This document shows positions 28,160 to 30,091 of a stretch of DNA of 64,000 nt, piece by piece (within the stretch, counting starts at the first letter, position 1; each line of letters begins with the position of its first letter). Source of the stretch: Salinicola avicenniae. GTDB lineage: Bacteria > Pseudomonadota > Gammaproteobacteria > Pseudomonadales > Halomonadaceae. A program made the position numbers and the translations under genes. The notes beneath the pieces were generated by a model. The model saw nothing but the letters and a program-made list of their open reading frames with translations. It ran no database searches and was not told the DNA's origin. The DNA lies in NCBI RefSeq assembly GCF_023736115.1, contig NZ_JAKQZC010000001.1, positions 372,001 through 436,000 on the forward strand, read 5' to 3'.

Positions 28160-28903
28160 ATGACCGACCCGTCAAAACCCGAGAACGATGATCTCCCGCG
28201 CGAGGCGGAAGAAACCCCCAACAAGGCCCATCGTGGCATCAAGAGCTACGTGCTGCGCGCGGGACGTATGACGGCCGCCCAGGAACGGGGGCTCACGGAG
28301 GTCTGGCCACAGTGGGGGCTGACGCTCGACGCCGGCCGTCAGGATCTCGATACCCTGTTTGGTCGCTCGGCGCCGCGCGTGGTGGAGATCGGCTTTGGCA
28401 TGGGGCAATCGCTGATCGAGCAGGCCGAGCGCCATCCGGAGACCGATTTCATCGGGATCGAAGTGCACGCGCCCGGTGTCGGCAAACTGCTCGACGAAGC
28501 CGACAAGCGTGGCCTGACCAATCTACGTGTCTATCGCGAGGATGCCCTGGCGGTGCTCGCGGACTGTCTGCCGGCAGCGAGCATCGACACCCTGCAGCTC
28601 TTTTTTCCCGATCCGTGGCCGAAGAAGAAGCATCACAAGCGCCGCATCGTGCAGCTGCCCTTTGTCGAGCTGGTGCGCACGCGCCTCAAGCCTGGCGGCA
28701 CCTTGCACATGGCGACCGACTGGGAAGCCTACGCCGAGCACATGAGCGAGATCATGGCTGAAGCGCCCGGCTACGAGAACACGGCGCCGGCGGAGACCTC
28801 GCCCTATGTGGCCCGCCCGGCGTTTCGCCCGCTGACCAAGTTTGAAACCCGTGGCGAACGGCTCGGGCACGGGGTCTGGGATCTGATCTATCGACGTACC
28901 TGA
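28160..28903 (+). CDS. trmB: tRNA (guanine-N7-)-methyltransferase
   Basis: A 247-residue SAM-dependent enzyme that makes m7G46 in the tRNA variable loop. Motif I is [15 protein letters not shown] near residue 76, [15 protein letters not shown] follows, and the family-specific [16 protein letters not shown] and [11 protein letters not shown] are present. The N-terminal 35 residues are acidic and lead into the family's typical [17 protein letters not shown]. The ribosome-binding site is weak. Its downstream neighbour on the plus strand is 1.2 kb away, so the 3' end falls in the interval that carries the candidate Fur-controlled RNA. Confidence 0.95.
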
Positions 28904-28985
28904 TCCGCGTGGCGCCAGCGCGAATGTCGGCTGGCGACCGTGGTCAGGGGCCGGATCGAAGGGCGTGAATCGGTAGGTGCCAAAC

Positions 28986-29014
28986 GAAAAAAGGCCGCCC
29001 CAAGGTGGGGCGGC
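28986..29014 (-). terminator. Intrinsic terminator of the candidate small RNA (and possibly the AEC gene)
   Basis: On the minus strand, a nine-base-pair stem, GCCGCCCCA / TGGGGCGGC, with a three-base loop is followed by a run of six to seven T. It is one of the strongest intrinsic terminators in the window. Confidence 0.85.
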
Positions 29015-29103
29015 ACTAAGGACCGTGACTAGCTTGATGAGGAGATAACCATGGCAGGAACCTGACATTCACTGCTGTGGTTAGTGGCGTTTGGCGACGC
29101 CAC
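28986..29103 (-). ncRNA. Candidate Fur-repressed small RNA of the RyhB/PrrF type
   Basis: The inferred transcript is about 118 nt. It opens with a 5' hairpin, GTGGCG-N8-CGCCAC (29084-29103). Next comes an unstructured stretch containing GGTTATCTCCTCATCAAG, whose CTCCTCAT is complementary to an ATGAGGAG ribosome-binding site. It ends in a strong hairpin and T-run. A Fur box (29113-29131) covers the inferred promoter: TTGCAA 17 bases before a weak TAACCT. Iron-starvation RNAs that block translation of iron-using proteins have this layout. The AEC gene ends only 40 bases upstream, so a shared 3' end for that mRNA is the main alternative. The class is inferred from architecture and needs a covariance-model search. 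Confidence 0.55.
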
Positions 29104-29112
29104 GAGAGAAAG

Positions 29113-29131
29113 GTTAATCATTCTCATTTGG
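29113..29131 (-). promoter_or_regulatory. Fur box over the small RNA promoter
   Basis: Minus strand AATGAGAATGATTA matches the Fur core AATGATAATCATTA at 12 of 14 positions. A second GAGAAT half-site in the opposite orientation lies at 29147-29152. It overlaps the region where the -10 box of the candidate RNA should lie, as expected for repression by Fe-Fur. Confidence 0.6.
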
Positions 29132-29170
29132 CTTTGCAAGCTAAACGAGAATATTTTTTATTTGCACGCC

Positions 29171-30091
29171 TCAACTGGCGCCGACCAGCTTCAACAGCAG
29201 CGGCAGCGACGCCATGGCCAACAGCGTCTGGCCGGTGATGATCGCCGCCATCAGCTCGGCATCGCCGCCTAGCTGGCGAGCGAGGATATAGGCCGACGTG
29301 GCGGTGGGTAGCGCGGCGAAGAGTAGTGCGACATCGCGCTCCACGCCGGCAAGTCCGCATAGCCGGGCCAGCACTACGACCAGCAGCGGCATCGCCACCA
29401 GCTTGAGCAGGCTCGACAGCCAGAACGCGCGGCCGCCCTGCCACAGCGCTTGCGGGCGCAGCGCCACGCCCACTGCCACCAGCCCGAGCGGCAGGGCGGC
29501 CGCACCGAGCAATGAGGTCGCCTCGCGGCTCCAGCCGGGCAGACCGAGTCCGGTGAGGTTGAGTGCGATGCCGGCGGCACAGGCGAGAATCAGCGGGTTG
29601 CGTGCCAGCGCCAGGGCACTGCGACCGAGACTGGCACGGCCGAGTGTGCCCGAGGCGATAAAGGCCGCCACGCAGAGTAGATTGGCGCACGGTACCATCA
29701 GGGCCACTGCCACGGCGGCGACCGTGGCGCCTTCGGCGCCATACAGGGCGGCCGCGCCGGCCACGCCGACATAGGTGTTGAAGCGCACGGCGCCCTGAAA
29801 GGTAGAGGTAAAAGGCGCCGGCGGCAGCGCCAGCCATCGCCGCATACGCCATAGCGCCAGCGCCATGACTATCATGGCGCCGAGCAGGGTTACGCCGAGG
29901 CGTGCCACCGGTACGCTGGCGATATCGGCCGTGGCGAGCGTGGCGACCAGCATCGCAGGGAACAGCAGGTAGTAGATGACCCGTTCCAGGCGGGGCCAGA
30001 AGTCGCCGCCGGGAAAACGTGCCCATCCGAGTAGCGCACCGAGTAGAATCAGCAGGAAAAGCGGGCCTAGCGCATTCGCGATGTCGCTCAT
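29171..30091 (-). CDS. AEC family (auxin efflux carrier-like) permease
   Basis: A 306-residue inner-membrane protein with about ten helices. Family features include FLLILLGALLGWARFP in the first helix, the basic loop before RVIYYLLFPAMLVATLA, NTYVGVAGAAALYG, and the closing TSAYILARQLGGD and MAAIITGQTLLAMASLPLLL. Bacterial AEC members export or import small organic acids such as malate or malonate. The substrate here is unknown. AAGGA lies seven bases before the ATG. Its stop codon is 40 bases before the Fur box of the candidate small RNA, and no separate terminator is visible, so read-through into the RNA is possible. Confidence 0.88.
   Translation of the reverse strand: MSDIANALGPLFLLILLGALLGWARFPGGDFWPRLERVIYYLLFPAMLVATLATADIASVPVARLGVTLLGAMIVMALALWRMRRWLALPPAPFTSTFQGAVRFNTYVGVAGAAALYGAEGATVAAVAVALMVPCANLLCVAAFIASGTLGRASLGRSALALARNPLILACAAGIALNLTGLGLPGWSREATSLLGAAALPLGLVAVGVALRPQALWQGGRAFWLSSLLKLVAMPLLVVVLARLCGLAGVERDVALLFAALPTATSAYILARQLGGDAELMAAIITGQTLLAMASLPLLLKLVGAS

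Follow-up and report, generated by a model that had tools for sequence, protein, structure and literature searches.

Iron-responsive small RNAs (sRNAs) are on record from several bacterial groups, and the best-known relatives of the locus reported here are the PrrF RNAs. These have been described for Pseudomonas species, nearly all sequenced members of which are described as carrying two copies per genome in a review that also cites ArrF for Azotobacter (PMC4211561). In P. aeruginosa, sdhCDAB, acnA, and acnB are reported to be PrrF regulated (PMC2851614). A title cited in PMC4211561 and PMC4144887 presents ArrF as an iron-responsive sRNA acting on sodB, and HrrF and NrrF (PMC4144887) as well as BrrF of Burkholderia (PMC7377471) also belong among the iron-responsive sRNAs. 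Titles and abstract openings in the open-licence literature, with subscription journals mostly uncovered, contained no report that we recognized of a native PrrF outside Pseudomonas and Azotobacter, the Halomonadaceae included. Here, we analyzed a 64,000-nucleotide stretch of the Salinicola avicenniae genome (the window) and propose that a locus on its minus strand very probably encodes a Fur-repressed, trans-acting sRNA of the PrrF type that spares iron.

Organization of the locus

The putative sRNA gene occupies the intergenic space between a trmB-like gene and a gene for an AEC-type transporter-like protein. Its features, in window coordinates, are the following.

28986 to 29138, minus strand: whole putative PrrF-type sRNA gene with its promoter region and terminator, as spanned by the match to the Rfam PrrF model
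About 29103 to 28987, minus strand: predicted transcribed part of the sRNA, between the trmB-like and AEC-transporter-like genes
29143 to 29160, minus strand: weak upstream Fur-like half site, AATATTCTCGTTT (9 of 14 at 29146 to 29160; similar form in many relatives)
29134 to 29139, minus strand: -35-like hexamer TTGCAA (relatives often have TTGACC or similar)
29112 to 29126, minus strand: Fur box, located in the promoter spacer and overlapping the -10 (11 of 14)
29111 to 29116, minus strand: -10-like hexamer TAACCT, 17 bases 3' of the -35-like hexamer
29084 to 29103, minus strand: hairpin 1, the 5' hairpin (folds and covariation)
29046 to 29083, minus strand: hairpin 2 (folds; inner helix 76.3% paired in the alignment)
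29061 to 29067, minus strand: UGUCAGG, apical part of hairpin 2 (TCAGG kept in relatives)
29021 to 29045, minus strand: unpaired core TCTCCTCATCAAGCTAGTCACGGTC, 25 nt, presumed pairing region (invariance and folds)
28987 to 29014, minus strand: intrinsic terminator with T-run (9 pairs, 8 of them G-C)
28160 to 28903, plus strand: trmB-like gene (tRNA methyltransferase, named by eye from the open reading frame)
29171 to 30091, minus strand: AEC-type transporter-like gene (open reading frame; name from the preliminary description)

Transcription is predicted to start near 29103. A preliminary description of this DNA had named a 5' hairpin and a strong terminator with a T-run, both of which are present (29103 to 29084 and 29014 to 28987, respectively), and had left hairpin 2 (29083 to 29046) unnamed. 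The stretch that it thought could pair with ribosome-binding sites is CTCCTCAT, within the core at 29045 to 29021. On the plus strand, a mini-frame at 29051 to 29065 reads ATG GCA GGA ACC TGA, and given that it has only four codons, the earlier explanation of this frame as the mirror image of an anti-Shine-Dalgarno sequence is reasonable. At the corresponding locus of Salinicola rhizosphaerae (L048), the TrmB-like protein is 90% identical, and ThiG-, AEC-, and FKBP-like neighbors are also present.

Relationship to PrrF and other iron-responsive sRNAs

The Rfam PrrF model (RF00444) matched the minus strand of the locus from end to end (positions 1 to 150 of 150) at 58.2 bits, with an E value of 1.7e-9 in the window stretch and 4.7e-9 in the 4.03-Mb genome, where this was the only match. 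The homology is significant and full-length, but the score lies under the gathering score of 90 bits, which is why a default Rfam scan of the window came back empty. The RyhB model (RF00057) returned no match anywhere in the genome, while the same model matched the control, E. coli, and the Rfam scan showed no iron sRNA other than PrrF here at E values up to 10. We therefore rejected membership in RyhB, the Fur-repressed, iron-sparing RNA of enterobacteria, which follows the same logic and resembles this locus in function only. The preliminary description had placed the locus in a joint RyhB/PrrF class and had pointed to both Rfam models; the PrrF part of this assignment holds, through the match below the cut-off and a near-identical core shared with Pseudomonas, and the RyhB part does not.

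Because it fails the Rfam cut-off, we place the locus outside RF00444 as delimited and file it as a divergent PrrF-type variant, homologous to PrrF by its core and most likely acting in the same way. It resembles PrrF1 and PrrF2 in its core, the Fur box in the promoter, the 5' hairpin, the terminator, and a length of about 110 nt, and as judged from the sequence it has the PrrF-type combination of a promoter Fur box, a shared unpaired core, and a Rho-independent terminator directly after the core. In contrast, the sequences of the Salinicola hairpins differ, the Rfam score is under the cut-off, the genome holds one match beside trmB in place of a PrrF1/PrrF2 pair, and hairpin 2 carries a UCAGG loop that occurs in most family copies and is rare in Pseudomonas. 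ArrF is likened to this locus by its description as an iron-responsive sRNA, and NrrF of Neisseria, HrrF of Haemophilus, and BrrF of Burkholderia are functional analogues likened in the same manner.

Core, fold, and covariation

The core TCTCCTCATCA[AG]GCTA[AG]TCACGGT is common to the locus and to Pseudomonas PrrF, nearly letter for letter. Among 166 cores counted, 111 had the form ATCAGGCTAATCACGGT, 45 the form ATCAAGCTAGTCACGGT, and 10 the form ATCAAGCTAATCACGGT. The Pseudomonas copies listed show the first of these, named copies from the Halomonas group the second, and those from Oceanospirillum the third. Both the core and TCAGG were invariant in all 20 sequences of an alignment hand-picked from 61 folded sequences. 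TCAGG at least 15 bases 5' of the core was found in 54 of 60 family-type sequences versus 2 of 96 Pseudomonas-type sequences, and is therefore a strong but not universal mark of the family type.

The stretch from 29107 to 28991 folded at -47.6 kcal/mol compared to -31.2 for shuffles (z -4.9), with none of 200 shuffles as good. Single-sequence folds of the 61 distinct sequences (60 family-type, one from the family labeled f3) usually gave hairpin 1, hairpin 2, an open core, and the terminator, and the core was 86% unpaired on average; a minority folded differently (e.g., L018, L023, L025, L030, and L012_p1928). In the 20-sequence alignment, an 18-pair structure formed in 90.5% of cells and 12 of its 18 pairs had changed on both sides, a signal that none of 500 shuffles reached by any of five measures and that was abolished by sliding the pairing partners. 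Hairpin 1 was paired in 97.9% of cells, and 5 of its 7 pairs had both partners changed; helix 2 was the weakest (76.3% paired), which we think stems partly from misalignment. The RNAalifold consensus of the same 20 sequences departed from most single-sequence folds by pairing a portion of the core with the region of the terminator. These observations bear on the suspicion that the locus is a chance assembly of a neighboring gene's terminator with a hairpin and a Fur-like site. Each such feature is common singly, and 0.8 terminator-like sites are expected by chance in the 1.1 kb scanned (28500 to 29600), yet the Rfam match, the conservation, and the covariation all speak against coincidence; we give it practically no credence, conservation having in effect already refuted it.

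Fur box and promoter

The Fur box, TGAGAATGATTAACC (minus strand, 29126 to 29112), agrees with 11 of the 14 scored positions of the Fur-box consensus TGATAATNATTATCA, one fewer than the 12 counted in the preliminary description. It is the sole 15-mer in the 64-kb window to score at least 11 of 14, a score reached by 1 of 1,000 shuffles of 29050 to 29170. Scored by a 19-base Fur consensus, the box reached 13 of 19, which other sites in the window equal and one exceeds (14). The presence of the box and its conservation support the Fur control proposed earlier.

A consensus scan of 28500 to 29600 found no sigma-70 promoter; the promoter-like hexamers TTGCAA-17-TAACCT are weak, and relatives show forms such as TTGACC-17-TATCTT. 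The missing promoter hit would suit a reading in which the RNA is the mere 3' end of the AEC-transporter mRNA, read through to the terminator from no promoter of its own, as would the position of the locus on the same strand, 3' of the AEC-like gene, from which no detected terminator separates it. The comparative data argue against such a tail. Among 30 family loci (L001 to L030, viewed to about 1.5 kb on either side), trmB was found in 16, AEC in 14, and neither in 8, so that 16 of 30 loci had no AEC homologue within that distance and the RNA was still present. Furthermore, an upstream Fur site of at least 10 of 14 was found in 59 of 61 sequences (60 family-type, one from f3) versus 6 of 61 when shuffled, and the boxes sit at an intergenic promoter position. 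We consider an AEC tail very unlikely and favor a gene of its own under predicted Fur control. Outside most of the family, a Fur site of at least 11 of 14 preceded 20 of 24 cores, compared to 2.1% of shuffled upstream stretches.

Promoter layout is not uniform among relatives. In Halotalea (L066) and Kushneria (L141), a Fur-like palindrome lies 5' of the -35 and not in the spacer, as if control had been retained while the promoter architecture was altered. Two extra copies (L012_p1928 and L014_p1333) are without a Fur box (8 of 14 and 7 of 14), and one of their cores has diverged.

Distribution among relatives

RF00444 matched 117 of 151 genomes drawn from the family labeled f1 at E values up to 0.001, with none of the 151 reaching 90 bits, and 23 of the 117 carried two or three matches. 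The remaining 34 genomes had no RF00444 match, and a more permissive model built here matches some of them. In a sample of the class, 3 of 369 genomes matched RF00444, namely, this genome, one from f1, and one from f3, the last of which scored 127.5 bits, over the cut-off, and served as a positive control. A pattern scan of named genomes found at least 119 stretches, mostly from Pseudomonas among the matches listed, which also included Stutzerimonas, Salinicola, Halotalea, Chromohalobacter, Halomonas, Larsenimonas, Kushneria, Cobetia, and Oceanospirillum.

A wider, sequence-only model built here from 22 sequences matched 60 of 390 genomes sampled from the order, spread over eight families (labels f1, f3, f183, f188, f197, f215, f216, and f217); the other 330 were unmatched at the threshold of this model, which was run without a shuffled control. 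In four of the 60 genomes even the best match was weak, with E values of 6e-4 to 8e-4 for three of them. We examined 20 of the matched stretches, 17 of which belong to neither f1 nor f3. Fifteen hold 24 cores with at most four substitutions, and five keep GCTARTCACGG, four of these with a changed left half, e.g., TCTCCCTCTCATTGCTAGTCACGGTC or TCTCTCATCAAAGCTAATCACGGTT. The fifth, L345, retains little of the left half, yet has a Fur site of 13, and L342 has a core and no Fur box and may be a false match or Fur-free.

Two sets of copies deserve separate mention. At L343, L344, L346, and L328, a Fur-like site, hairpins, GCTARTCACGGT, and a terminator are kept and the CUCC half is altered, which lets these copies serve as a natural test for the half responsible for target pairing. 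Genome G763 carries five tandem sRNA copies at L327 (C3:1547300-1549200), spaced about 280 to 300 bases apart, and every copy is preceded by a Fur site scoring 10 or 12 of 14.

Candidate targets

The core contains CUCCUCAU, which could cover Shine-Dalgarno sequences. Between -30 and +20 relative to the start, we counted unbroken runs of bases complementary to the core, and 174 ATG starts that have a strong Shine-Dalgarno, drawn from 478 starts, served as controls; for acnA, 16 genomes were searched and two returned no acnA locus, giving 14 leaders. At least seven complementary bases were found in 11 of 14 acnA leaders versus 11 of 174 controls (Fisher p 1e-9, uncorrected for kinship), one of the 11 matches falling outside the Shine-Dalgarno, and at least eight in 5 of 14 versus 4 of 174 (p 1e-4). 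At nine bases or more, acnA was no better than the controls (1 of 14 versus 2 of 174; p 0.21). Leaders of leuC were enriched as well, reaching at least seven bases in 9 of 16 cases and at least eight in 2 of 16 (p 0.08). The acnA leader of this genome reads ATGAGGAGGACGACTTATG.

Other signals were weaker. By duplex energy, acnA did not stand out (rank 10.6% among 188 starts), and neither did the other candidates scored in this way, two ferritin-like starts included, in a ranking that discriminates weakly and picks starts crudely, the bfr-like (L266), acnB (L264), and sdhC (L252) starts being mispicked. No clear pairing site was seen by eye for sdhC. Across 18 genomes of the genus, seed complements numbered 32 (own gene excluded) versus 30 for a control pattern, and hence there was no excess in the genus; the sRNA gene itself was matched by this search in 18 of 18. 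An Fe-SOD target was rejected, because the two clear SODs carry GGGH-NHSLFW, presumably the Mn-type motif, and the pairing-energy ranking puts their starts at 84% and 88%. A third, strongly diverged SOD-like protein (L251; G000:C7:80400-83200) seems by eye to be without some of the usual metal-binding motifs. Given the negative results for sdhC, SOD, the ferritin-like starts, and the seed count, the targets expected in the preliminary description are only partly borne out: aconitase is supported through the complementarity of the acnA leaders, inspection by eye showed no sdhC site, the two clear SODs look Mn-type, and the two ferritin-like starts scored have unremarkable energies. We regard acnA as the best candidate target and leuC as a possible one, on target evidence that is only suggestive.

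These weak signals (sdhC, seed counts, and duplex energies), and a conserved UCAGG loop without a known partner, would also fit a real Fur-controlled RNA whose main targets are not iron proteins, or one that works as a sponge or protein-binding RNA via the loop of hairpin 2. We judge this unlikely, as the core is the most conserved element and is common to PrrF, whose targets are iron enzymes according to one report (PMC2851614), and the acnA leaders stand out in complementarity.

Elsewhere in the genus, a seed complement, TGGTTTGATG[AG]AGGGG, lies at a TctB/TctA-like junction (named by eye), where the second gene has its ribosome-binding site, in 5 of 18 genomes (L229, L246, L247, L248, and L249), and perhaps reflects a target or coding conservation.

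Proposed regulation and implications

We propose that the sRNA gene is probably switched on by iron shortage. With enough iron, Fur would occupy its box within the promoter spacer, blocking transcription. When iron is short, Fur would leave, and transcription starting at about 29103 and ending at the terminator would yield an RNA of about 115 nt, whose unpaired core would pair via CUCCUCAU with ribosome-binding sites, probably helped by Hfq, so that mRNAs of dispensable iron proteins (aconitase A, acnA, as the best candidate, and possibly leuC) would lose translation. The computed basis for this model consists of the gene anatomy, the core shared with PrrF, conservation, covariation, the Fur box, and the presence of an hfq gene in the genome; from these we infer transcription, dependence on Fur and iron, Hfq binding, and target repression.

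Since the core is common to Pseudomonas PrrF, this means of saving iron seems to predate its known group and to extend beyond it, and the range of PrrF, so far the Pseudomonas group, grows to at least eight families (by label) of the order. A bolder joint reading, which we offer tentatively and consider doubtful, holds that PrrF did not originate in Pseudomonas and is an ancient iron-sparing RNA of the order, in which the GCUARUCACGG 3' half of the core is deepest-kept and the CUCC half varies by lineage, and that the exposed UCAGG loop on hairpin 2 of the Halomonas branch is a second recognition element. If true, one Halomonas-branch RNA would read two partner sets. The natural variant series shows which PrrF bases are kept and makes aconitase A a testable old target. 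In Halomonas biotechnology, the P. aeruginosa PrrF1 scaffold has been imported as a silencing tool (PMC12164125, PMC13414033, PMC13101641); relatives of the Halomonas host that uses this scaffold appear, from their genomes, to own homologues themselves.
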